Assembly (NCBI GenBank): GCA_946541575.1
Contig: CAMNJQ010000065.1
Location: forward strand, 62,001-126,000
Length of the DNA: 64,000 bases
Source: an uncultured Clostridium sp.
GTDB lineage: Bacteria > Bacillota_I > Bacilli_A > RF39 > UBA660
Direction: 5' to 3'
Positions 7,484 through 63,965 of this stretch are shown here, piece after piece. The stretch's first letter is position 1; every line of letters starts with the position of its first letter. The notes below the pieces were generated by a model, which worked only from the letters and a program-made list of their open reading frames with translations, was not told the DNA's origin and made no database searches. The translations under genes and the position numbers were made by a program.

Positions 7484-9478
7484 TTACTTACTCTTTAATT
7501 CAAATATAATATCACGAAGTTCCATAGCTCTTTCGAAATCTAAATTCTTTGCAGCTTCTCTCATTTCTTGTTCTAATTCTTCTACACTTAATTCAATTTC
7601 TTTCTTAGACATCTTTTCTTTCTTCTTATTCTTACTATTTTTTAAATCATCAACATTGCTAATTAAATCTCTTATTTCTTTAATAATTGTCTTTGGAATT
7701 ATTCCATGTTCTTCATTATATTTCTCTTGAATTGCCCTTCTTCTTGCAGTTTCATCTATAGCTTTTTGCATTGACTCAGTAATCTTATCACCATACATTA
7801 TACATTTACCATTAGCATTTCTTGCACATCTTCCAATAGTTTGGATAAGACTTCTTTCACTTCTTAAAAATCCTTCTTTATCTGCATCTAGTATTGCAAT
7901 CAAACTAACTTCAGGAATATCTATACCTTCACGTAGTAAATTTATACCAACTACACAATCATATTTACCTAATCTTAAATCTCTAATAATACGTAATCTT
8001 TCTAAAGTTTTAACTTCTGTATGTAAATATGCTACTTTTATATCTATCTCTTTTAAGTAATTTGTTAATTCTTCTGCCATTCTAATAGTAAGAGTAGCAA
8101 TAAGTACTCTTTCATTTTTTTCTATTCTATCTTTAATCTCTCCGACTAAATCCTCAATTTGTCCAAGAGAAGGTCTAACTTCAAGTATTGGATCCAAAAG
8201 TCCAGTTGGTCTTATTATTTGTTCAACGAAAACATTTTTAGTCTTCTCTAGTTCATAATCACCAGGAGTTGCAGAAACATAAATAGCTTGATTAATTTTA
8301 CTTTCAAATTCTTCAAATTTAAGAGGTCTATTATCAAGAGCACTAGGTAGTCTAAAACCATATTCAACAAGATTCATCTTTCTTGCTCTATCACCATTAT
8401 ACATACCTCTAACTTGAGGTAAAGTTACATGTGATTCATCAACAATAAGAAGATAATCATCACCAAAAAAATCCATTAAAGTAGTAGGAGTTTCTCCCTC
8501 ACCACGAAGAGCCATATGCCTTGAGTAATTTTCTACTCCAGAACAAAATCCAGTCTCTGCAAGCATTTCTAAGTCATAATTAGTTCTTTCTTCTATTCTT
8601 TGAGCTTCTAATAATTTATTATTTTCCTTGAAATATTTTACTCTTTCTTCCATTTCACTTTTAATTCTTTTCATCGCTTCTTGTAACTTTTCATCACTAG
8701 TTACAAATAAGCTTGCTGGAAATATAGAAACGTTTTTCTTATTTACTTTAATTGCTCCAGTTAATGTATCTATTTCACTAATCCTGTCTATCTCATCACC
8801 AAAGAATTCTATTCTAATACCATTAGTTCTTTCACTTGCTGGAATTACTTCAACAACATCTCCTCTAACTCTAAAAGTTCCACGTTTAAAATCAATATCA
8901 TTTCTTTCATACAACATATCAACTAGTTTATTTAATACTTCGTTACGTTCAATAGTATCTCCAACAGTTAATGTAAGCATCTTATCTCTATATTCTTCTG
9001 GTTCACCAATACCATATATGCAAGAAACAGAAGCTACAACAATAGTATCTTTTCTAGTTAATAACGAACTAGCAGCAGCATGTCTTAACTCATCAATTTC
9101 ATCATTAATTGATGAATCCTTCTCTATATAAGTATCAGTACTAGGAACATATGCCTCCGGTTGATAATAGTCATAATATGATACAAAATATTCAACTCTA
9201 TTGTTAGGAAATAACTCTTTAAATTCACTATATAATTGACCTGCTAAAGTTTTATTATGAGCTAAAATCAAAGTAGGCTTATTAACTTTAGAAATAACAT
9301 TAGCCATAGTAAAAGTTTTACCACTTCCAGTAACTCCTAAAAGAACTTGATGTTTTTTTCCATCATTAATTCCTTTAACTAACTCATCTATTGCTTCAGG
9401 TTGATCACCAGACGGAACATAATTACTTATAAGTTCAAACAAAAAAATCATCTCCTTCAAAAACATACAATAACACAA
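7484..9478 (-). CDS. uvrB: Excinuclease ABC subunit B (true start probably near [17 protein letters not shown])
   Basis: [25 protein letters not shown]-terminal UVR motif. Confidence 0.98.
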
Positions 9479-9514
9479 ATATAATAAAAAAGGAACTTAA
9501 TTAGAAGTCCTAAA

Positions 9515-9850
9515 TTATTTTTTTAACTTTTTTAAATTATCATACTGCTTATACATATATTGCACAGAATTTTCCAAATAATAGTAATGAAAAATATAAG
9601 GAATTAAAAGACATAAGAATAATAAAAATAAGAAGAAAACTCCTATACTATAATTAGTAACAACAAAAAATAAAGAAAATAAAGTTAATATAGAAAATAG
9701 AATAGTAACTAAAAGATGAATTAATCTCTCGTGCATAAAAAAATTAATTTTAATAAGATGTTCTTCTAACAAATTATCTATATCTTTATTATTTCCTTCT
9801 TCAATGATTCTATCAATTTTATTAATATACTCTTTCATATAATTTTTCAT
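9515..9850 (-). CDS. Small two-TM membrane protein, unknown function
   Basis: 111-aa ORF with N-terminal amphipathic region and two hydrophobic helices. Confidence 0.5.
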   Translation of the reverse strand: MKNYMKEYINKIDRIIEEGNNKDIDNLLEEHLIKINFFMHERLIHLLVTILFSILTLFSLFFVVTNYSIGVFFLFLLFLCLLIPYIFHYYYLENSVQYMYKQYDNLKKLKK

Positions 9851-9942
9851 TTATACCTCTCTAATATAATAATTATAACATATTTATACAAATATTTTTT
9901 ATATTATGTTATAATAAAAATTAGAATGATTGGGGTGTAAAT

Positions 9943-11382
9943 ATGATAGATCTTTCTTTAATTGTTTTTGGAAAAAACAATGATATAAAACAAGATAAAA
10001 ATGTAGAAATAATATATACAAGTGAAACACAAAAAATAGGTGAAATTGTAAATAATTCTAAAGGAAAATATGTGGCTTTCATTAAAGAAGAAGACAATAT
10101 TTCAAAAGATTATTTAGAAACAGTTTTGAAAAAGACTAAACAAGAATTTGATTGTTGTTTTATAAATTATGAAATTCTATATAAATATAAAAATAACATT
10201 AAACCATCAACAACCGAATCAGAATTAAAAACAATTAAACCATATTATGGTGAATATATTTGGTCATTTATATTTAAAAAGGAAAAACTATTAAAAGTAT
10301 TAGAAAATACTAAAAAAGTAGGATTTGATAAAAGAATTGATGATATATTTCAAACAACTACATCAATTGGAAAAATAATATATTTTCATAATCCAAAAGC
10401 AAAAAATATTATAAAAAAATTTCCATATACAGACATTAAAAGAGAAATAAAATTAGATAATATTATATATGTGGGAATAGGTTGTAGTGGAAAGTTCAAT
10501 GGTTACGTCAGTTGGGTTAGAAATATTGGAAAATGTTTTGGAAAAAAATATAAAATTGGACTTATGTATAAAGAAATGACAGAAGAATCTATAGAAGAGT
10601 TCTCTCAATATTTTACATGTATAAAACTATTAAATGATACAAACTACATATGTGATAGATTATGTACAACATATTCAGATTATTTTTACCCCAAAAATAT
10701 AATTCCTTTAGAAAGAAACTATATGTTTATACATGGAAATATGAGTGATTTTAAAAATGCACGTAAATATTATGATAATATATATACTGATTATGTTGCT
10801 GTATCAAAAGTATCAGAAGAAAAAGCTAAAGGCTATTTTCCAACCGATAAAATCTATCATATTATAAATCCAATCAAAATTAATGACAGAATTAAACCAC
10901 ACCTAAAACTAACATCAGCATTTAAATATAGTGATGTAAAAAGGCCTGATAGAGTTGAATTAATGGCAAAAATTCTTAATGAATTAGATATACCATTTAC
11001 ATGGAATGTATTTACAGATTCAAAAGAAAACACTTGTGAATCTAATGGATTAATATTTAGAAAAAGAACTAGTAATCCAATTCCTTACATAAATGATAGT
11101 GACTATTTCGTACATTTAAGCGATAGTGAAGCAATGCCATATTGTGTTATGGAAGCACTAGCAACAAACACAAAAGTAGTAGTCACTCCACTCGAAGCTT
11201 ATGATGAATTAGGGCTAGTTAATAACAAAAATGCAATAATCATTCCATTTGATTACTTTAAAAAAGAAAATGAAGAAAAGCTAAAAAAAATAATATTAAA
11301 AATGTATAAAGAAAAAGAAAAAGAAGTAAATTATTACATTGACGAAAGACTATGGTCAGGATATAAAGATGTATTCAAATAA
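9943..11382 (+). CDS. Glycosyltransferase: degenerate GT2-like N-terminus plus GT4/GT-B-like C-terminus
   Basis: N-term KYVAFIKEEDNISKDYLE (GT-A-like); C-term DYFVHLSDSEAMPYCVMEALATNTKVVVT (GT4-like donor-site region). Confidence 0.65.
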   Translation: MIDLSLIVFGKNNDIKQDKNVEIIYTSETQKIGEIVNNSKGKYVAFIKEEDNISKDYLETVLKKTKQEFDCCFINYEILYKYKNNIKPSTTESELKTIKPYYGEYIWSFIFKKEKLLKVLENTKKVGFDKRIDDIFQTTTSIGKIIYFHNPKAKNIIKKFPYTDIKREIKLDNIIYVGIGCSGKFNGYVSWVRNIGKCFGKKYKIGLMYKEMTEESIEEFSQYFTCIKLLNDTNYICDRLCTTYSDYFYPKNIIPLERNYMFIHGNMSDFKNARKYYDNIYTDYVAVSKVSEEKAKGYFPTDKIYHIINPIKINDRIKPHLKLTSAFKYSDVKRPDRVELMAKILNELDIPFTWNVFTDSKENTCESNGLIFRKRTSNPIPYINDSDYFVHLSDSEAMPYCVMEALATNTKVVVTPLEAYDELGLVNNKNAIIIPFDYFKKENEEKLKKIILKMYKEKEKEVNYYIDERLWSGYKDVFK

Positions 11383-38624: not shown

Positions 38625-38822
38625 CTACTCTACAATTTTCTTAATTTTTTTATTAAATTCTACCCTTGGCATCATAATAATTCTTGAACAATTAACACAC
38701 TTTAATTTCATATCAACGCCAACTCTAACTATTTCCCATAAGTTTGTACCACAAGGATGGCCTTTTTTCATAATAACTTTAGTACCAACTTCAATTTTTT
38801 TCTCATCCATATAATTACTCAC
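38625..38822 (-). CDS. DUF951 family protein (YyzM-like)
   Basis: VGTKVIMKKGHPCGTNLWEIVRVGVDMKLKCVNCSRIIMMPRVEF. Confidence 0.9.
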   Translation of the reverse strand: MSNYMDEKKIEVGTKVIMKKGHPCGTNLWEIVRVGVDMKLKCVNCSRIIMMPRVEFNKKIKKIVE

Positions 38823-39708
38823 TTATCTTTAATAACTCTAAAATTCTACTTAAATCACTCGAATTACTAAACGAAATATTAATTTTATTAGAACTTATTT
38901 TTACCTTTGTACCAAGTTTCTCACACATAATATTTTCATAATATTCATATTCACTATTTGTTCTAGTTTTTATTTTATGATTTTTTTCTATATTTTCACC
39001 TTTTGAAACTTCTTCTATATCACGTACATTTAAATTATCTTCTACTATCTTATTTGCAAGTGCAATTACTTCTTCTTTATTACCCATTTTAGAAAGAACT
39101 CTTGCATGACTCATTGATATTTTATCTTCTATAATTAAATCTTTTACTTCTTCAGGCAAATTCAATAATCCTAACATATTAGTAATATGACTTCTACTTT
39201 TTCCCAATCTATTAGCAAGCTCTTCTTGTGTTACTTGCATAGCATCTAATAAACTTCTATAAGCCATTGCTTCTTCTATAGAATTTAAATTTTCTCTTTG
39301 CAAATTTTCAAGTAAAGCAATCTCCATCATTTGTTGATCAGTAAAATCTCTTACTATAGCAGGTATTTTATCTAATCCAGCAATTTTACAAGCTTTAACT
39401 CTTCTTTCACCTGCAATTATTTCATACCCCTTAATAGAACTTCTTTTAACTATAATAGGTTGAAAAACGCCATGCTCCTTAATTGAATCAGCTAATTCTT
39501 GCAATTTTACTTCATCAAATACTTTCCTTGGCTGATATGGATTTGGTCTTAATTCATCAATTGGCAATTCAACTATTTCATCAGATGAAGTTGAATCTAA
39601 TATTTTTTCTTCTATTTGAGTAAAATTAATTTGTTCATTATTAAATAATTCTTCTAAGCCTTTTCCTAAAGCTCTTCTTTTAAAACTATTGTTGTCCATT
39701 TCTTTCAA
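38815..39708 (-). CDS. parB: ParB/Spo0J chromosome partitioning protein
   Basis: LGKGLEELF, LRPNPYQPRKVFD, GYEIIAGERRVKACKIAG, HTH region. Confidence 0.95.
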   Translation of the reverse strand: MKEMDNNSFKRRALGKGLEELFNNEQINFTQIEEKILDSTSSDEIVELPIDELRPNPYQPRKVFDEVKLQELADSIKEHGVFQPIIVKRSSIKGYEIIAGERRVKACKIAGLDKIPAIVRDFTDQQMMEIALLENLQRENLNSIEEAMAYRSLLDAMQVTQEELANRLGKSRSHITNMLGLLNLPEEVKDLIIEDKISMSHARVLSKMGNKEEVIALANKIVEDNLNVRDIEEVSKGENIEKNHKIKTRTNSEYEYYENIMCEKLGTKVKISSNKINISFSNSSDLSRILELLKISE

Positions 39709-40474
39709 TCACTTCCTTTGCTAAATTTATATATGCATCAGTTGCTCTACATCTAGGATCATATGCCAAAATTGGTTTACCATGAGAAGGGCACTCTGCT
39801 AATCTTACTAATCTTGGAATAATTGTATTATAGACTCTTTCCTTAAAATACTTTCTTATTTCTTCAACAACTTCAAACCCTAGATTAGCTCTTGAATCTA
39901 ACATTGTTAACAAAACTCCTTCAATTTCTAATGTAGGATTTAATTGTTTTTGAGCCATCATTATTGTATTTAACAATTGCATTATTCCTTCCAATGCTAA
40001 GAATTCACATTGTACTGGAATAATTACAGAATTAGATGCTGTTAAAGCATTTATTGTAATAATACTTAATGTTGGAGGACAATCTACTATAATATAATCA
40101 TATTTATCTCTAATAGGATCAATTTTATTCTTCAATTGAGCACCTTTAACAAAATTAGGTTCTTCCTTAGACTTCTCAAAAAATTCAGCTTCTAAACCAG
40201 AAAGATTAACAGTTGCAGCAAGTAAATCTAATCTTTTATATGCTGTATGTATAATTGCATCTTCAATAGAGCATTTATCTATTAAAACATCATAAATTGT
40301 TCTATCAATATCCCCCTTATTCATTCCAATTCCAGTTGTAGAATTTCCTTGTGGATCTAAATCTAATAATAAAACTTTTTTACCTAAATAAGCTAAAGAT
40401 GCAGATAAGTTAATACTTGTAGTTGTTTTACCAACTCCACCTTTTTGATTAACTAATGAAATCATTTTACCCAT
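39686..40474 (-). CDS. parA: ParA/Soj ATPase
   Basis: NQKGGVGKTTTSINLSASLA; LLLDLDPQGNSTTGIG. Confidence 0.97.
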   Translation of the reverse strand: MGKMISLVNQKGGVGKTTTSINLSASLAYLGKKVLLLDLDPQGNSTTGIGMNKGDIDRTIYDVLIDKCSIEDAIIHTAYKRLDLLAATVNLSGLEAEFFEKSKEEPNFVKGAQLKNKIDPIRDKYDYIIVDCPPTLSIITINALTASNSVIIPVQCEFLALEGIMQLLNTIMMAQKQLNPTLEIEGVLLTMLDSRANLGFEVVEEIRKYFKERVYNTIIPRLVRLAECPSHGKPILAYDPRCRATDAYINLAKEVIERNGQQ

Positions 40475-40572: not shown

Positions 40573-41766
40573 TTATGCATCCTTCTTTAACGTAATTGTT
40601 ATTTTATAATCTGACGTTCCATCATTTTCATCAACACTAACTTTATAACCATCAGTTTCTAACTTTTTAACTACTTCCTTTAAACTAGATACAGCTCTAG
40701 TAACATCTTTTTTATCACCAATTGATAAAGTTGAAGAACCAACTGAACTAGCTACATTAGTTGAAGAAGTATTACTATTAAATAAATTTAATGAAGAATC
40801 AGTTGAATCATTATTTGAAGCGAAACTAAATGAAGGAGTAAAATTAAATCCCTTATCATCTTTATTATCAGATTCTTTATTAGTAGAACTTGAGCTAGAT
40901 GTTTCATTTCCAAAAGATGCAAAATTAAATCTTAAATCAGAATTCTTTGAATCATCAGTCTTACTACTATCATTTCCTATATTAGCAGAAAATCCAAAGT
41001 TAGATTCGCTTTTTTCTTCTTTAGCATCAGCAGAATTATCTTGAATTGTCCAAGAACCATTTCCAAAACTTGCTGCTTTTTTATTATCATCAGAAGTAGC
41101 TGTTCCTTTTAAATCATTTAAATTGAAACTAAATCCTGTATTTGACTTAGTTACTCCTTCTTTTAATTCTTTTATTTCTTTATCTAAATCTCTTACAGTT
41201 AATTTCTCTTCCATAACCTTATTCAAAAGCTTAATTTGAGTATTTTTATCATCTACATTTAATAAACTTCTAGCATGACGCTCAGAGATTTTTTCCTTTA
41301 ATAAAGCATCTTGTATTTCATCAGGAAGAGCAAGCAATCTAAGTTTATTAGAAACTACAGATTGAGTTTTACCCATAGAAGCAGCTAATTGCTCCTGAGT
41401 CATATTTCCACCTTCAAGCTCTAATATTTTTTGATAAGTTCTTGCTTCTTCAATAGGAGTTAAATCCTTTCTTTGTAAGTTCTCTATTAAAGCTATTTTT
41501 GAGCTTTCTTTATCATCAAGGTTTTTAATAATTGCTGGTATTTTAGTTAGTCCTGCCATAGTAGATGCTTTATATCTTCTTTCACCTGCAATTATTTCAT
41601 ATTTGTTTTCAACTTTCCTTACAATAATAGGTTGAATTACTCCATGTTCTTTAATTGACACAGCTAATTCTTTTAAAGCTTGATCATCAAATACTTCTCT
41701 TGGTTGAAATCTATTTGGAATTATATCATCTAGATATAGAGAAACTACTTCATTACTACTTTCCAT
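40573..41766 (-). CDS. Second ParB-family protein (Noc position) with Phe/Gly/Ser/Asn low-complexity linker
   Basis: ParB N-domain (IPNRFQPREVFDD, YEIIAGERRYKAS, IENLQRKDLTPIEEA) and HTH; residues ~206-345 low complexity. Confidence 0.9.
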   Translation of the reverse strand: MESSNEVVSLYLDDIIPNRFQPREVFDDQALKELAVSIKEHGVIQPIIVRKVENKYEIIAGERRYKASTMAGLTKIPAIIKNLDDKESSKIALIENLQRKDLTPIEEARTYQKILELEGGNMTQEQLAASMGKTQSVVSNKLRLLALPDEIQDALLKEKISERHARSLLNVDDKNTQIKLLNKVMEEKLTVRDLDKEIKELKEGVTKSNTGFSFNLNDLKGTATSDDNKKAASFGNGSWTIQDNSADAKEEKSESNFGFSANIGNDSSKTDDSKNSDLRFNFASFGNETSSSSSTNKESDNKDDKGFNFTPSFSFASNNDSTDSSLNLFNSNTSSTNVASSVGSSTLSIGDKKDVTRAVSSLKEVVKKLETDGYKVSVDENDGTSDYKITITLKKDA

Positions 41767-41867: not shown

Positions 41868-42575
41868 CTATAACAAATAATCATTTTTAATATCTTTTAT
41901 ACTTCTTGGATATTTCTCATTAGTCTTTTTTATCTTCTTCAAATTAACTAATGTTCTATTACTATCTTCAATGGGAAGCTTAAATTTATTAATATTTTCT
42001 AATACAACACCTAATTTATTAAAACTTGAAGAAACTTTATCTAACTCTTCATCGCAATTAGCTTTCATAAATATCAAATTACCATTAACTTTTAATGCCT
42101 TAATTGATATTTCCGTTAAAATACCAATATTTGCAACTGCTCTTGCTGTTATACAATCAAATTTTTCTTCATTCATTCTAGAATAATCTTCCATTCTAAA
42201 ATGCTCAGCATGAATATTACTTAATTCAAGTTCTTTAATAATCTCATTTAAATAGTTTACTCTTTTCTGTAAAGAATCTATAAGTACAATTTTTAGGTTT
42301 GGGAAAACAATTTTTAGAACTATTCCCGGAAACCCTGCTCCACTTCCAACATCACATAAAGTTATATTTTTACTTAAATCAATTTCCTTTACTAAAGTCA
42401 AACTATCATAAAAATGTTTTAAATATACATCATTTTCCATTGTAATAGTGGTAAGATTTATTTTTTCATTCCATTCAATTAATAAATGATAAAACTTATC
42501 AAGCTTATCTAATTTGTCCTTATCAAGTATAATTCCTAATTTCTTTACTTCTAAAACAAAATCTTCTTTATTCAT
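41868..42575 (-). CDS. rsmG: 16S rRNA (guanine-N7)-methyltransferase
   Basis: WNEKINLTTI, LCDVGSGAGFPGIVLKI, TARAVANIGILTE. Confidence 0.96.
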   Translation of the reverse strand: MNKEDFVLEVKKLGIILDKDKLDKLDKFYHLLIEWNEKINLTTITMENDVYLKHFYDSLTLVKEIDLSKNITLCDVGSGAGFPGIVLKIVFPNLKIVLIDSLQKRVNYLNEIIKELELSNIHAEHFRMEDYSRMNEEKFDCITARAVANIGILTEISIKALKVNGNLIFMKANCDEELDKVSSSFNKLGVVLENINKFKLPIEDSNRTLVNLKKIKKTNEKYPRSIKDIKNDYLL

Positions 42576-44483: not shown

Positions 44484-47400
44484 CTATTTCTTTTCTTTTG
44501 CTACAGTAAGCATTAATTTAATTCTATTAATTTGATTTGTGTGACTTGCTCCAGGGTCATAATCAATTGCAACTATATTACTTTCTGGATATAACTTTCT
44601 TATCTTTTTAATAACCGCTTTACCTACAATATGATTAGGTAAGCATGCAAAAGGCTGAACACAAACAATATTAGTTACTCCTTCTTTAATAAGTTCTACC
44701 ATCTCAGCAGTTAAAAACCAACCTTCTCCAGTTTGATTTCCTACAGATAAAATTCCATCTATATTATCTACTAACTTATAAATATCTACACTTTTTCTAA
44801 ACCTAGTATTTTCTAATGCTTTATCTATTGGTTTTTCATATAGTTTAATAATATCAATCATTACTCTACATCCATAAGCATAGGCATAACCTTTTTTCAA
44901 TAATTTAGATTTACCAATACCATCATATGCACTATATTTAACAAATCCCATTAATTCAGGAGCACATACTTCTACTCCTTCCTTTTCAAGTCTATCAACT
45001 AAATGATCATTTCCAAAAGTATGATATTTTATTAATATTTCTCCAACAATTCCTACTTTTGGTAAATCTTTAAGTTCTACTTTTATATCATTAAACTCTT
45101 TTACAATTTGCTTAACATTCTTCTTATAATCACTATTTTTACCATGCAATATAGCTTCACAGCATTTATCATTCCATTTATTATATAATGCTATAGACTC
45201 TCCTTTATTAACTTCATATGGTCTAGTTGAATAAAGTAGCTTCATTAATAAATCTCCATAGCTAATAGCTTGTAAAAATTTATTAATTAGAGGAACATTT
45301 AACTTAAATGCCTGTTCTTTTTCAAGGCCACTAAAATTAAGTGACATTACAGATACTTGTGAAAGGCCTGCATCACTAAGAGCTTTTCTAATTAATCCAA
45401 TATAATTTGTTGCACGACATCCTCCACCAGTTTGAGTAAGTATAACACTAGTATTATTAACATCATATTTACCACTAAGTAACGTATGAACTAGTTGTCC
45501 AATAACTATAATTGCAGGATAGCAAGCATCATTATTAACATACTTTAATCCAGTTTCAACCATTTCTTCTGTAGTATCTTTTAAATATACAGGCTTATAA
45601 CCAGCTGTTGTTAATGCTGCACCTAATAAAGGCATATGAAATTGTGAAACATCAGGAAATAATAAAATATGCTCTTTATCAACTTTATCAAATACATTTT
45701 TCTCATAACTATAAGGCTTATAAACATTATCGTTTATTCTCTTATTCATTGAAGCAATTAAAGAACGAATTCTAATTTTTGCTGTACCCAAATTATTAAC
45801 TTCATCTATTTTTATAGTTGTAAATAATTTATTATTAAACTTCAATATTTCTTCTGCTTGATCAGTAATAATAGCATCAAGACCACATCCAAATGAATTA
45901 AGATTAACAAGTTCTAAATTATTATAACGACTTACAACATCACAAGCATTAAATACTCTAGCATGATATTCCCATTGATTCATAACTCTTAACTTTGATT
46001 TAATCTTACTTAAATGACATATAGAATCTTCAGATAACACAGCAAGACCTAAAGAATTAATCATAGTATCTATTCCATGATTAACTTCTTTATCCAAGTG
46101 ATATGGTCTTCCAGCAAGAACAATAGCTTTTTCATTATGATTAATTATATATTCTAAGAATTCTTCTCCTTTTTCTTGAACATCTTTCTTAAATCTTTCT
46201 TGTTCTTTAAAACCAAGTTCAACTGCTTTTTTTACTTCTCTTTTCTTAAACTTATATTTTTTAAATTCAGGTATTTCTAGTAACCTCTTAATAAGTCCAT
46301 TTTTCTCTAAAGGAACAAAAGGATTAATATAGTTTATTTCTTGTTTATCTAATTCTTCAACGTTTAATTTTATTGCTTCACTATAAGATTGAACAATAGG
46401 ACAATTATAATTATTATCAGTAGTATCAAATTCTTTCTTTTCAAACATAATACAAGGATAAAAAATAGTTTTAATTCCTTTATTAATCAAATTCATTATA
46501 TGACCATGAACAAGTTTTGCAGGATAACATACTGATTCACTTGGCATAGATTCAATACCACTTTCATAAATACGTCTATTAGAATGATCAGAAATAACAA
46601 CTTTAAAGCCTAAATTAGTAAAAATAGTAAACCATAATGGATAATTTTCATACATATTTAAAACTCTAGGAATCCCAATTACACCACGAGGAGCATTTTC
46701 AATAGGTTCGTAATCAAACAATCTATCATATTTCCAAGAATACATATTAGGTAATGTTGTATTACTTCCGTTATTTCCACTACCTCTTTCACATCTATTA
46801 CCAGAAATAAATCTCTTTTCATTAAACATATTAATAGTCAAAGCACAATGATTTTCACATCTTTGGCATCTTGTATTAGTAGTTTTAACTTTTAAATTAA
46901 GTATTTCTTCTTTTGTTAACATAGATGTTTTAATATCTTGATCATCATACTTCTTATAATTTTCAAGAGCAATTAAAGCAATACCATATGCTCCCATAAG
47001 ACCAGCTATATCAGGTCTAATAACTTCTTTTCCAGTAATATTTTCAAATGCTTTTAATACAGCATCATTAAGAAAAGTACCACCTTGAACAACAATTTTA
47101 TCACCCAAAGTAGACATATCTCTAATTTTCATTACTTTTTGAATAGCATTTCTAATAACTGAATAAGATAGTCCTGCAAAAATATCTCCTAAAGGTCTAC
47201 CTTCCTTCTGAGTTTGTTTTATCTTACTATTCATAAAAACAGTACAACGACTACCTAAATCAATTGGAGCCTTACTCTTTATAGCTAAATCCACAAAATC
47301 TTGAACTGACATTCCTAAACTTTTGGCAAGTGTTTCTATAAAAGAACCACATCCACTTGAACAAGCTTCATTAAGCATAATAGAATTAACAACACCATCT

Positions 47401-48695
47401 TTAATTCTAATATATTTCATATCTTGTCCACCAATATCTATTATACTTTCTACTCCAGGTAGAAAATGATTAGCAGCTTCAAAGTGAGACATTGTTTCAA
47501 TTTCACTAATATCTAGATTAAATGCCGTTTTAACAAGTAATTCACCATATCCAGTTGAGCCACTTTGTCTAATAACTACATTTTTTGGTAATTTATCATA
47601 CAAATCCAAAATCATAGATTTAACTGTATCAAATGGTGTTCCTTTATTACTTTGATAATTTTCATAAAGAAGCTCTCCATCACTTCCAATTGCAACAACC
47701 TTACAAGTAGTACTTCCTGCATCTATTCCAACAAATACATCACCAACATAAGAAGACAAATCATACTTACTAATTGAAGCTTTATTATGTCTTTGAACAA
47801 ATTTTTTATAATCTTTCTCATTTTTAAATAATACAGGTAAGTTATTTGATTCTTCTTCAGAAAAATCTTTTAACTTATCTTTCAATTTATTAAAATCCTG
47901 AATATTAAAAACTTTCTTCTTTTCTTTATCAAGAATTGCTCCAATACAAACAAATATCTTTGTATCAATATTTGTTTTAACAATCTCATTTTCCTTTAAA
48001 TCTAATGTACTAATAAATCTTTGTCTTAATGAAGATAAATATGTTAGTGGTCCACCTAAAAACAAAACATTTCCTTTTATTGGCTTTCCACAAGCAAGAC
48101 CACTTATAGTCTGGTTAACAACTGCTTGCATAATAGAAAGAGCAATATCCTCTTTTTTAGCTCCTTCATTTAAAAGAGGTTGAACATCAGCTTTAGCAAA
48201 AACGCCACATCTAGATGCGATAGGATATATATTTTTTCCTTCATTAGCGAAATCATTAAGTCCTTCTGTAGTAGTATTTAAAAGAACGGCCATTTGATCT
48301 AAAAAAGAACCTGTTCCACCAGCACAAGAACCATTCATTCTCTGCTCTATAGTTTGATCAAAATAAATAATTTTTGCATCTTCACCACCAAGTTCAATAC
48401 ATACATCTGTTTCTTTTGCATACTCGTTAATAGCATTTTTACATGCAATTACTTCTTGAACAAAATTTACATCTAAAAACTTTGCAAGTGTTATTGCTCC
48501 ACTTCCAGTCATTGTCAAAGTATAATTAGACTTAGGAAATTTATTAATTATTTCATCAAATAAGTCTTCAATTGTTTTTTTTGTATTAGAAAAATGCCTC
48601 CTATATTCACTATATAAGATACTATTTTTATCATCCATTACTACTGCTTTTACAGTAGTAGATCCAACATCCATTCCTATATTTACTACTTTCAT
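44484..48695 (-). CDS. 2-hydroxyacyl-CoA dehydratase activase-like fusion (two BcrAD/BadFG domains plus dehydratase-like C-terminal region)
   Basis: Two ASKHA activase modules with Cys motifs (GSCAGGTGSFLDQMA; NEACSSGCGSFIETLA) then DUF2229-like region; 1403 aa. Confidence 0.88.
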   Translation of the reverse strand: MKVVNIGMDVGSTTVKAVVMDDKNSILYSEYRRHFSNTKKTIEDLFDEIINKFPKSNYTLTMTGSGAITLAKFLDVNFVQEVIACKNAINEYAKETDVCIELGGEDAKIIYFDQTIEQRMNGSCAGGTGSFLDQMAVLLNTTTEGLNDFANEGKNIYPIASRCGVFAKADVQPLLNEGAKKEDIALSIMQAVVNQTISGLACGKPIKGNVLFLGGPLTYLSSLRQRFISTLDLKENEIVKTNIDTKIFVCIGAILDKEKKKVFNIQDFNKLKDKLKDFSEEESNNLPVLFKNEKDYKKFVQRHNKASISKYDLSSYVGDVFVGIDAGSTTCKVVAIGSDGELLYENYQSNKGTPFDTVKSMILDLYDKLPKNVVIRQSGSTGYGELLVKTAFNLDISEIETMSHFEAANHFLPGVESIIDIGGQDMKYIRIKDGVVNSIMLNEACSSGCGSFIETLAKSLGMSVQDFVDLAIKSKAPIDLGSRCTVFMNSKIKQTQKEGRPLGDIFAGLSYSVIRNAIQKVMKIRDMSTLGDKIVVQGGTFLNDAVLKAFENITGKEVIRPDIAGLMGAYGIALIALENYKKYDDQDIKTSMLTKEEILNLKVKTTNTRCQRCENHCALTINMFNEKRFISGNRCERGSGNNGSNTTLPNMYSWKYDRLFDYEPIENAPRGVIGIPRVLNMYENYPLWFTIFTNLGFKVVISDHSNRRIYESGIESMPSESVCYPAKLVHGHIMNLINKGIKTIFYPCIMFEKKEFDTTDNNYNCPIVQSYSEAIKLNVEELDKQEINYINPFVPLEKNGLIKRLLEIPEFKKYKFKKREVKKAVELGFKEQERFKKDVQEKGEEFLEYIINHNEKAIVLAGRPYHLDKEVNHGIDTMINSLGLAVLSEDSICHLSKIKSKLRVMNQWEYHARVFNACDVVSRYNNLELVNLNSFGCGLDAIITDQAEEILKFNNKLFTTIKIDEVNNLGTAKIRIRSLIASMNKRINDNVYKPYSYEKNVFDKVDKEHILLFPDVSQFHMPLLGAALTTAGYKPVYLKDTTEEMVETGLKYVNNDACYPAIIVIGQLVHTLLSGKYDVNNTSVILTQTGGGCRATNYIGLIRKALSDAGLSQVSVMSLNFSGLEKEQAFKLNVPLINKFLQAISYGDLLMKLLYSTRPYEVNKGESIALYNKWNDKCCEAILHGKNSDYKKNVKQIVKEFNDIKVELKDLPKVGIVGEILIKYHTFGNDHLVDRLEKEGVEVCAPELMGFVKYSAYDGIGKSKLLKKGYAYAYGCRVMIDIIKLYEKPIDKALENTRFRKSVDIYKLVDNIDGILSVGNQTGEGWFLTAEMVELIKEGVTNIVCVQPFACLPNHIVGKAVIKKIRKLYPESNIVAIDYDPGASHTNQINRIKLMLTVAKEKK

Positions 48696-54857: not shown

Positions 54858-56261
54858 ATGAACGATAATTCAGAATTATGGTCAAATATCCTTAAGAAAA
54901 TTAATGAAAAATTAGGCTCAATGTCTTATAAAGTATGGTTTAGTGAAACCGAACTTTATGATTTAAATAACGGAGTTGCAAAAATATTAGTACCATTACA
55001 AATACATAAATCACATTTAAAAGACAAATATAAAAAGTTAATAACTTCTTGTTTTATCGAAGAAACAGGACAAAGTTACGAACTTGAATTTTTAACAATA
55101 GACGATATAAAAGAATTTGAAAATCAAAATGATACAAAAGATGACTTTGTTGATGAGGAAAATCATCAAGAAAACATAATATATAAAAAAAATGATAATT
55201 CCACATTTTCATCAAATCTAAATAGAAAATATACATTTGATAATTTTGTAGTAGGGAATAGTAATAAATTTGCTCATGCCGCAGCATTAGCAGTTGCAGA
55301 AAATCCTTGTTCGACATACAATCCATTATTCATTTATGGAAATAGTGGGTTAGGGAAGACACATCTAATGCATGCTATCGGTAATTACATAGAGCAAAAT
55401 AGTAATAAAAAAGTACTTTATACAACAAGTGAAACTTTTTCAAATGAATTTATTGAAATATCAAGAAAAACTGAAAATAAAAATAACTTTGATAGTATAG
55501 AATTATTCAAGAACAAATATAGAGGAATAGATGTATTAATAGTTGATGACATACAGTTTTTAGAAAAAAGAATAGAGTCACAAAAAGAATTTTTTCACAC
55601 ATTCAACAATCTATATGAAGAGGAAAAACAAATAATCATATCATCAGATAGGTCACCGAATGATTTAAAAATACTAGAAGATAGGCTAAGAACAAGATTT
55701 AGTTGGGGATTAGCAGTAGACATATTTCCACCAGATTTTGAACTAAAAGTGGCTATTTTAAAGAAAAGAATTGCTGCTGAAGGCATTACAAAAGAAGTAC
55801 CTGATAACGTAATAGAATATATAGCATCAAATATAGGAACAGATATAAGAAACTTAGAAGGAAGCTTAAATAGACTTTTTGCATATTCTTCAATGATGGG
55901 AGCAGATATAGACTTAGACCTTGCAATAGAAGCATTAAAAGACTACTTAAATTCAGGTTTTAGTGAAAAAAATGATATAAGTAGAATACAAAAACTAGTA
56001 GCCGATTACTTTAACATATCAATTGACGACTTAAAATCAAAAAAAAGAAATGCCAATATCGTATTTCCAAGACAAATAGCAATGTATTTATGTAGAAAAC
56101 ACACAGAAGAATCGCTAAAAAAAATAGGTAGAGAGTTTGGTGGACAAGATCATACAACAGTTATGCACTCTTGTGAAAAAATTGATGTAAATATTAAAAA
56201 AGATAAAAATATTGCAAATGAAATTGATAAACTAGAAAAAGAACTTCATACCTTAAAATAA
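54858..56261 (+). CDS. dnaA: Chromosomal replication initiator DnaA
   Basis: YGNSGLGKTHLMHAIGN; ALYLCR-like MYLCRKHTEESLKKIGREFGGQDHTTVMHSC. Confidence 0.99.
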   Translation: MNDNSELWSNILKKINEKLGSMSYKVWFSETELYDLNNGVAKILVPLQIHKSHLKDKYKKLITSCFIEETGQSYELEFLTIDDIKEFENQNDTKDDFVDEENHQENIIYKKNDNSTFSSNLNRKYTFDNFVVGNSNKFAHAAALAVAENPCSTYNPLFIYGNSGLGKTHLMHAIGNYIEQNSNKKVLYTTSETFSNEFIEISRKTENKNNFDSIELFKNKYRGIDVLIVDDIQFLEKRIESQKEFFHTFNNLYEEEKQIIISSDRSPNDLKILEDRLRTRFSWGLAVDIFPPDFELKVAILKKRIAAEGITKEVPDNVIEYIASNIGTDIRNLEGSLNRLFAYSSMMGADIDLDLAIEALKDYLNSGFSEKNDISRIQKLVADYFNISIDDLKSKKRNANIVFPRQIAMYLCRKHTEESLKKIGREFGGQDHTTVMHSCEKIDVNIKKDKNIANEIDKLEKELHTLK

Positions 56262-57558: not shown

Positions 57559-57600
57559 TAATTATTGTATTATATGTGTCACAAAAGGGGGATATATAAT

Positions 57601-58059
57601 ATGAATAATTATGAGATTAATGAGGATACTTACGTAGTTTTAGCAGAAGAAATAGGAAAAACAAAGATAATTGAAAAAGATAATGAATATACAATTAATG
57701 AAGATGCTTACAAGGTAATGGATGAAAGTTGTAAATATTATGGAAGTAGTTATAAAGGAAGAATAGAAGCATCAAAGAAATTACTAGATTGTAGCTATAA
57801 ATTACCGATTATTGTTGAAGAAAGTAGCGCATTAATATTTTTTCCAATAAAATCATCATTATTACAAGATTGTTGCTGGATTAATTTAAATAGTATTAAA
57901 AGTGTTGAAAAAAATGGCAATAAATGCAACATAACATTAATCAATGGGAAAAAATTGTTAATTGATATTTCAAAATTATCTATAGAAAATCAAATATATA
58001 GATCTTCAAAATTAGAATCTATAATTTATAAGAGAATAATTACAAAAAAAAGGGATTAA
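57601..58059 (+). CDS. comK: ComK-like competence transcription factor (track start 57565; MNNYEINEDT preferred)
   Basis: YEINEDTYVVLAEEI, KIIEKD, DESCKYYGSSYKGRIEA, LPIIVEESSALIFFPIKSSLLQDCCWINLNSI, TLINGKKL, ENQIYRSSKLES match the recalled ComK layout; AGGGGG SD. Confidence 0.82.
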   Translation: MNNYEINEDTYVVLAEEIGKTKIIEKDNEYTINEDAYKVMDESCKYYGSSYKGRIEASKKLLDCSYKLPIIVEESSALIFFPIKSSLLQDCCWINLNSIKSVEKNGNKCNITLINGKKLLIDISKLSIENQIYRSSKLESIIYKRIITKKRD

Positions 58060-61222: not shown

Positions 61223-63805
61223 ATGGATAATGAAAATACAAATGAAGAATTAAATGAAGAATTCGATGAATCTCTTGAAAGAGTAGAAATAAATAATTCT
61301 AACTTTGATGGATATTTCCATGAAAGAGATAGTTTAGCTGAGAATAATATAGTAAATGAAGTAAAAACATCATTTTTGGAATACTCAATGAGCGTAATAG
61401 CATCTCGTGCATTACCAGATTTAAGAGATGGATTAAAGCCAGTTCATAGACGTATTTTATGGTCAATGTATGAATCTGGGTATACTCCAGATAAACCTCA
61501 TAGAAAAAGTGCAAAAACAGTTGGAGAAGTTATGGGTAATTACCATCCACATGGTGATTCTTCAATATATGAAGCGATGGTTAGAATGGCACAAGATTTT
61601 AACCAAAGATATATGTTGATAGATGGGCATGGAAACTTTGGTAATATTGAAGGTGATGGAGCTGCAGCAATGCGTTATACAGAATCTAGATTATCAAAGA
61701 TTTCTTTGGAATTACTAAGAGACATTTATAAAGATACAGTTGATATGGATGATAACTTTGATGTAACTAGAAAAGAGCCAAGAGTATTGCCAGGAAGATT
61801 TCCAAATGTTTTAGTTAATGGTGCAATGGGAATTGCAGTAGGAATGGCGACTAATATACCACCACATAATTTAGGTGAGGTAATTGATGGTTGTGTTGCA
61901 TATATAGATAATCCAGAAATTGATACTTTAGGTTTAATGCAATACATAAAAGGGCCTGATTTTCCAACAGGTGGAATAGTTTTAGGTAACTCTGGTATCA
62001 AACAAGCGTACGATACAGGAAGAGGAACGATTACTATAAGAAGTAAAGCTATAATAGAAGATCATGGCACTCATAGTAATATAGTTATCACTGAAGTTCC
62101 ATATGGTGTTAATACAATGGAATTAAAGAATAAAGTAGCAGAGCTTGTTCACAATAAAACTATAGATGGTATATCAGATTATCATACAGATTTAAAAGAT
62201 GGCGTTAAAATTACCATTACTTTAAAGAAGGATGCTAATCCACAAGTAGTATTAAATAATTTATATAAGCATACTAATTTTCAAGTATCATATGGAATAA
62301 TTTTTTTAATGCTAGATGGATTAACACCAAAAACATTAAGTTTAAAATCAATTATATCTAAATATATAGACTTCCAAAAAGAAGTAATAATAAGAAGAAC
62401 AAAATATGATTTAGCCAAAGATGAAAAAAGAGTACACATATTAGAAGGTTATAAGATTGCATTAGATAATATTGATGAAGTTGTTAAAATAATTAGAAAT
62501 GCTGAAACAGATGTTGAGGCAAAAGAAAAATTAATGAGTAGATTTGGATTAACTGAAATTCAAACTGACGCAATACTTGAATTAAGATTAAGAAGATTAA
62601 CAGGATTAGAAAGAGATAAAATTGAAGCAGAATTAAATGAATTATTAGCAGAAATAGAAGAATTAAAATCAATTTTAGCATCTGAACAAAAAGTATTAGA
62701 GATAATCAAAAAAGAAATGTTAGAAATAAAAGCTAAATATAATGATGACAGAAGAACAACAATCGACATGACAGCAATTGATTATATAGAAGACGAATCA
62801 TTAATTCCTGTAGAAAACATATTAGTAGCATTAACAAATAAAGGATATATAAAGAGACTTCCAAACGATACATTTAAATCACAACACAGAGGTGGAGTAG
62901 GAATTAAGGGAATGGCTACAAATGAAGAAGATTTCCCAGAAAAAATCTTATCTATGAAAACTCATGATTATATACTTTTATTTAGTAATTTAGGAAAAGT
63001 ATATAGAATGAAAGGATATGAAATTCCAGAATTTTCAAGGCAAGCAAAAGGATTGCCTATAATAAATTTATTGCCACTAGAAAAAGAGGAAAAAATCACA
63101 TCAGTAGTAGAAGTAAACGAAGAAAGTGATCAAACATTCTTAACATTTGTTACAAAGAGTGGACTAGTAAAGAGAACCTCAAGGGAAGAATTTGAAAATA
63201 TAAGAACAAATGGTAAAAAAGCAATTATCTTAAAAGAGAATGATGAACTAATCGCAGTAAGAAAAACTGATGGTAATAAAGAAATAATTATTGGAGCTTC
63301 AAATGGAAAATTAGTAAGATTTAATGAAACAGAAGTTCGAATAATGGGAAGAGGAAGTTCTGGAGTTAAAGGAATTGAATTAGAGGACAATGAACATGTT
63401 GTTGGAGCAGAAGTTGTAGAAAAAGATGCAAATGTATTAATAGTAACTGAAAAAGGTTATGGAAAGAAAACACCAATAGATGAATATAGATTAACTCATA
63501 GGGGAAGTAAAGGTGTAAAAACATTAAATGTAACCGATAAAAATGGTGAATTAGTATCATTAAGAACTGTATATGAAGATGAAGATTTGTTGATAATTAC
63601 AGATAGTGGTATGACTATAAGAATGGATATAGCGCAAATCTCAACATTAAGTAGAAATACTCAAGGAGTAAGATTAATAAATCTAAAAGATGAGCAAAAA
63701 GTATCTGCAACAGCAATAATTGAAAAAAATAATGAAGAGGAAAATATTGAGAATAATCAAGAAAATCAAACAGATGTTGTAGAAGAAGATAATAAAGAGG
63801 AATAA
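61223..63805 (+). CDS. gyrA: DNA gyrase subunit A
   Basis: [45 protein letters not shown]-terminal beta-propeller repeats. Confidence 0.99.
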
Positions 63806-63860: not shown

Positions 63861-63865
63861 TAATT

Positions 63866-63946
63866 GATGCAATAAGTACGGCAGAACCAGGTCAGGACAG
63901 GAATGTAGCAGCCTTAATGCTTTTATATTTAGTACTTATGTGCATC
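63866..63946 (+). ncRNA. ffs: Signal recognition particle RNA (small bacterial type)
   Basis: ACCAGGTCAGGACAGGAATGTAGCAGCC core with GGAA tetraloop and GATGCA...TGCATC closing stem, then T tract. Confidence 0.92.
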
Positions 63947-63965
63947 ATTTTTTTTGGAGTTATTT

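Follow-up and report, generated by a model that had tools for sequence, protein, structure and literature searches.

A Noc-type ParB paralogue with a long disordered linker, and NBS sites interleaved with parS near the origin, in an uncultured genus of RF39 Bacilli

Noc is a DNA clamp whose usual task is to protect the chromosome as a whole from cell division, and it is the textbook ParB paralogue with a new job, its sites having moved off the centromere and a membrane hook having been added. The second ParB-family protein encoded in the window, the stretch of 64,000 nucleotides analysed here, raises the question of what such a clamp may serve where the hook is missing and the sites lie at the centromere. 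Its gene, noc, encodes a Noc-clade ParB paralogue of 397 aa from an ATG start (40573..41766 including the stop codon, minus strand; open reading frame and profile matches). RsmG (GidB; 41868..42575) lies upstream as in B. subtilis, and ParA (Soj; 39686..40474) and ParB (Spo0J; 38815..39708) complete a B. subtilis-type mnmG-rsmG-noc-parA-parB order; all three were assigned by profile matches and are on the minus strand, and the GKSRS motif read from the ParB sequence places the parS-type residue R at position 173. On the plus strand, DnaA (54858..56261) shows that the oriC region lies between noc and the centromere array described below, GyrA (61223..63805) lies near the array-side end of the window and the small SRP RNA (63862..63953) lies between gyrA and tadA. 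Elsewhere in the window we observed a ribosomal protein L10 leader (RF00557; 61–178, minus strand), a 1403-aa protein beside mnmG (44484–48695, minus strand) with two tandem activase-like (BcrA/HgdC-type) ATPase halves as judged from sequence, and a ComK-family protein (competence regulator; 57565–58059, plus strand; PF06338, E 7.6e-39) between dnaN and recF.

The folded parts of the protein are those of Noc. Residues 1–205 (41152..41766, minus strand) form the N-terminal CTP-binding domain and the DNA-binding domain, without the Noc membrane-targeting helix; as the sequence-only reading had recognized, residues 7–202 match ParB_N (PF02195, E 1e-35) and HTH_ParB (PF17762, E 1e-31). The CTP motifs are GERR (61–64), kept in 99/99 orthologues, and ENLQR (95–99), kept as EN-QR in 95/99. 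The specificity residues of the HTH (41278..41364, minus strand) are Q135, K141, A146 and R163, which correspond to 173/179/184/201 in the numbering of Jalal 2020 (PMC7383237) and give an NBS-type QKxR set. Reading of NBS requires Q173 and R201, with K at 179 or 184 (PMC7383237), and the QKAR set of the window protein contains each of these. The short, folded-looking tail seen earlier (residues 352–397; 40576..40713, minus strand) is real, and is an ordinary Noc-type C-terminal α-β-β domain pushed back by the linker. Its AlphaFold2 pLDDT is 86, and over its full length hhalign matches it to canonical Noc C-terminal domains with 96.7–96.9% probability (E 4e-10 to 1.6e-10). A ParB C-terminal domain was ruled out, as hhalign returned no match to it, and a search of the tail fold against the PDB gave nothing better than E ~1, the domain being too small. 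The marks of ParB/Spo0J are absent from the window Noc: residue 173 is Q and not R, and the C-terminal domain is unlike that of ParB. The best solved relatives of the protein are 7ng0 and 7nfu, both annotated Noc. The match to TIGR04285 is partial (profile positions 1–199 of 255), and its score of 288.7 bits lies under the curated NCBIfam cut-off of 315 because the linker displaces the C-terminal domain. In its ParB_N and HTH domains, CTP motifs, NBS-reading residues and C-terminal domain, the protein resembles Noc of B. subtilis, Geobacillus and S. aureus; it is a Noc whose DNA-binding and C-terminal domains are set apart by a long disordered insertion.

Unlike canonical Noc, this protein has no N-terminal membrane helix. 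The window Noc and 11 genus orthologues start directly before β1, and most of the 99 orthologues in the order have just 5–18 residues ahead of this strand, which bears out the earlier remark that a Noc-type amphipathic helix is not evident. In B. subtilis, the N-terminal helix of Noc is required for nucleoid occlusion (PMC4331003, PMC8429893). MinC (PF03775) is missing from the order as well: it was detected in 0/60 order genomes and in the B. subtilis control.

To locate the sites, we searched for the NBS pattern ATTTCCCGGGAAAT, counted at ≤1 mismatch, and the parS pattern TGTTTCACGTGAAACA. Both are present in all 12 genus genomes, each of which carries noc, and the reversed-pattern controls give 0 or 1. 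None of the 49 NBS in the 12 genomes is more than 261 bp away from a parS, and the median distance is 37 bp centre to centre. The two site types share a single intergenic array, in many cases as an N-P-N-P alternation at spacings of 35 and 47 bp; it follows gyrA-SRP RNA-tadA, precedes dnaX in most genomes and is ~10 kb away from dnaA. In the window genome, the array starts ~460 bp beyond the small SRP RNA, at contig position 126416 (window coordinate 64416), 416 bp past the window end. MAG contigs break within the array: the contig of the window (G000:C65) ends inside an array repeat, and contig G000:C47, whose first 37 bp overlap that end exactly, carries the array further, which suggests that the two adjoin. 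A two-mismatch search of the window genome yields 4 further NBS-like sites, against 1 in the control, and no NBS was found beside dnaA. The near-consensus NBS, which are scattered for canonical Noc, are here all in one parS array near oriC, as seen by a search that misses degenerate sites. Chance co-location of NBS and parS was ruled out by the reversed-pattern controls together with the scattered NBS in relatives.

We then compared this arrangement across the order and class. The order sample holds 97 genomes of 62 genera of these uncultured, small-genome gut bacteria, with records labelled uncultured Bacilli, Erysipelotrichaceae or Clostridium and with rumen and gut samples among the sources; no paper was found linking RF39, a candidate name for small-genome gut Bacilli, with nucleoid occlusion. 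A long-linker Noc is encoded in 90/97 genomes, and 88/97 have 1–11 NBS. Of the 51 NBS in 17 genomes beyond the genus, 24 are within 300 bp of a parS, and the count rises to 36 at 2 kb and to 48 at 10 kb; in some genera of the order NBS are 2–20 kb away from parS. Other families of the class have a Noc of 254–306 aa that matches the whole profile, and the same kind of search finds their NBS scattered; in G127, which has a canonical Noc, parS lies at 18–23 kb and NBS from 312 kb to 2.47 Mb. One exception from another family is G130 (G130:C1:115091-115861, locus L178), whose NBS likewise lie near the origin, over ~40 kb around parS. Its Noc plausibly begins with a membrane helix, has a normal C-terminal domain and continues C-terminally in an acidic extension of ~400 aa that ends in GFWNLFK. 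The consensus search undercounts NBS, giving few matches (at most 19) in each canonical relative, and it is blind to degenerate NBS, so weak scattered sites may exist in the order as well. For comparison, ChIP of S. aureus Noc gave 41 major peaks (PMC5540599), and papers on Noc describe NBS around the chromosome (PMC4331003, PMC8429893, PMC5540599).

The HTH and the NBS also vary together. The QKxR pattern is found in 97/99 Noc proteins, and the two exceptions, VKTR in G074 and EKSR in G031, are the only ones with a changed NBS-reading glutamine. Both come from the group of five genomes that carry noc but have no NBS, an overlap with a chance probability of 5×4/(90×89) = 0.0025. In G074, ATGTTACACGTGTAACAT, a shifted parS consensus, is present in nine exact copies by the SRP RNA (G074:C20:49959-50972, locus L187), and NBS are absent; a diverged NBS hidden in this array was considered, and no other repeated palindrome was found there. 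Zero NBS is commoner in apparently noc-less genomes (4/7 versus 5/90, p = 0.001), a comparison weakened by genes that may be missing from MAGs. Contrasts of this natural kind, in the HTH and in the presence of noc, give the strongest evidence that this Noc may read the array. In three noc-bearing genomes with normal QKNR (G051, G079 and G102) no NBS was detected, and two of them have clear parS arrays. Separately, G051:C5 carries at about 9178–10366 (locus L197) a long 45-bp tandem repeat resembling a collagen-like Gly-x-y coding pattern.

The linker itself occupies residues 206–351 (40714..41151, minus strand; composition and AlphaFold2 model), is rich in Ser, Asn and Asp, and contains every Phe string quoted in the sequence-only reading. 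At ~145–147 aa it differs from the short canonical linker. AlphaFold2 pLDDT is <50 across residues 207–351, one residue excepted, and essentially no helix is predicted. Phe makes up 8.8% of the linker, ranking 1/99 among orthologues (median 3.9%). There are five FxF doublets against 1.0 in shuffles (p = 0.001) and three FG dipeptides against 0.85; single aromatics are spaced no more evenly than chance (p ~0.5), and the densest aromatic cluster is not unusual (p = 0.34). Of the aromatic repeats described earlier, the FxF patches are thus real, but a regular aromatic periodicity is only weakly supported. Other genus members have 1–2 FxF, so that within the genus the fivefold pattern is limited to the window species, and FG is absent from 5/12 members. 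The only aromatic element common to the genus is one short F[KNQ]F[VT], in most cases continued by PSF or a similar sequence, which looks more like a docking motif than a mesh. The window species appears to have multiplied an FxF-type motif.

Across the 99 orthologues, three of them cut by contig ends, linker length ranges from 66 to 508 aa (median 179) and composition shifts freely between Asn/Ser-, Pro/Ala- and Glu-rich. This fast change, together with the 55/99 linkers that lack both tested motifs, would suit a spacer with a passive role, drifting under a mutation bias towards AT and Asn/Ser, that only provides reach between the DNA-binding and C-terminal domains. We consider that account rather unlikely, as the motifs stand far above shuffles even with shared ancestry contributing: [VI]DI-x-IK/R-x-N-x-x-DI is found in 31/99 linkers against 0.7, and F[KRNQ]F[FVTILM] in 34/99 against 2.7, the latter as FKFVPSF in the genus and FFNFLED in another clade. 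The insertion is also present in every extracted noc of the order and missing from nearly all other families. The motifs are conserved within sub-clades only, and the window species has no DINKIRE-type motif, having apparently lost it.

The Phe motifs (FKFVPSF, NPFAKFF and FFNFLED) could instead replace the lost N-terminal helix and bring origin DNA to the membrane, so that Noc would perform ordinary nucleoid occlusion. The N-terminal helices of canonical Noc relatives are short Phe/Leu motifs (MGLFDFLG and MNIFS) similar to linker motifs such as FFNFLED, and a cell without MinC may need other Z-ring control. However, a hydrophobic membrane patch conserved in all linkers was rejected, because only 3/99 linkers have a densest aromatic 9-mer above that of shuffles (p ≤ 0.05). 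The motifs further differ by clade and are absent from many linkers, the predicted model has essentially no helix in the linker, and near-consensus NBS are not spread over the chromosome. We regard membrane recruitment through the linker as unlikely. A third possibility is that Noc at the array chiefly restrains replication initiation at the nearby oriC, as reported for S. aureus, where Noc controls initiation (PMC5540599). The distance of the array from dnaA fits such a role, but the window genome has no NBS next to dnaA itself, and we hold this to be quite improbable.

The least probable account, that of the sequence-only reading, has the linker condense Noc on the centromere by means of FG-nucleoporin-like stickers and spacers; the FxF excess, the top Phe fraction, the predicted disorder and the crowding expected at an array speak for it, and we think it very improbable as the single-aromatic spacing is no more even than chance and the pattern is conserved neither in the genus nor in the order. 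The window species does show the likeness, with Phe stickers in Ser/Asn spacers, but its orthologues have no conserved FG repeats and its relatives a single short aromatic motif, and a condensate as a family trait was rejected on this basis; condensation in this one species is still conceivable. That reading had itself proposed orthologue comparison of the Phe spacing as one check, with unconserved linkers lacking aromatic periodicity as a refuting outcome, and this is the outcome obtained. What survives of its condensate-forming, CTP-dependent clamp is a Noc-clade and probably CTP-dependent clamp with a disordered linker, and not the condensate domain.

The reading that we prefer, with a probability of roughly two in three, is a CTP-clamp Noc confined to a composite parS/NBS centromere, with the linker as a flexible tether. 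From the domain make-up, the absent N-terminal helix, the array, the site co-location, the Noc–NBS covariation and the lack of MinC, all of which can be read directly from the genomes, we infer binding, clamp loading, partner recruitment and an origin-restricted role. Noc dimers would load as a CTP-gated clamp, as the conserved motifs suggest, at NBS interleaved with parS, and ParB would load on the adjacent parS, placing two kinds of clamp on one stretch of DNA. The long disordered linker that stands in place of the short canonical one is probably a flexible tether with lineage-specific docking motifs (FKFVPSF and DINKIRE in the genus, FFNFLED in another clade), which would hold a partner at the origin region. 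The resulting role would be restricted to the origin, in segregation, origin positioning or local division control, and would not be chromosome-wide nucleoid occlusion.

Such an array resembles a ParB/Spo0J-parS centromere in its tandem clamp-loading sites near oriC, one cluster per chromosome. It differs in that the second clamp's own, different site is interleaved in it, and in that this clamp has the Noc and not the ParB C-terminal domain. More tentatively, at somewhat less than even odds, the centromere of the whole order may consist of two interleaved site types, parS for ParB and NBS for a re-tooled Noc, each protein acting as a CTP clamp. Noc would then be dedicated to the centromere and recruit partners with its disordered arm; this could be a derived fate that followed the loss of MinC and of the membrane helix, or a relic of the origin of Noc from ParB.

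The order offers ready-made two-clamp arrays with fixed spacing for studying the loading and sliding of two CTP clamps on the same DNA. Near-consensus NBS inside the parS array, the missing N-terminal hook and HTH changes that track NBS loss would together show that Noc can serve the centromere, and the order makes it possible to ask whether chromosome-wide occlusion preceded a centromere role or followed it.
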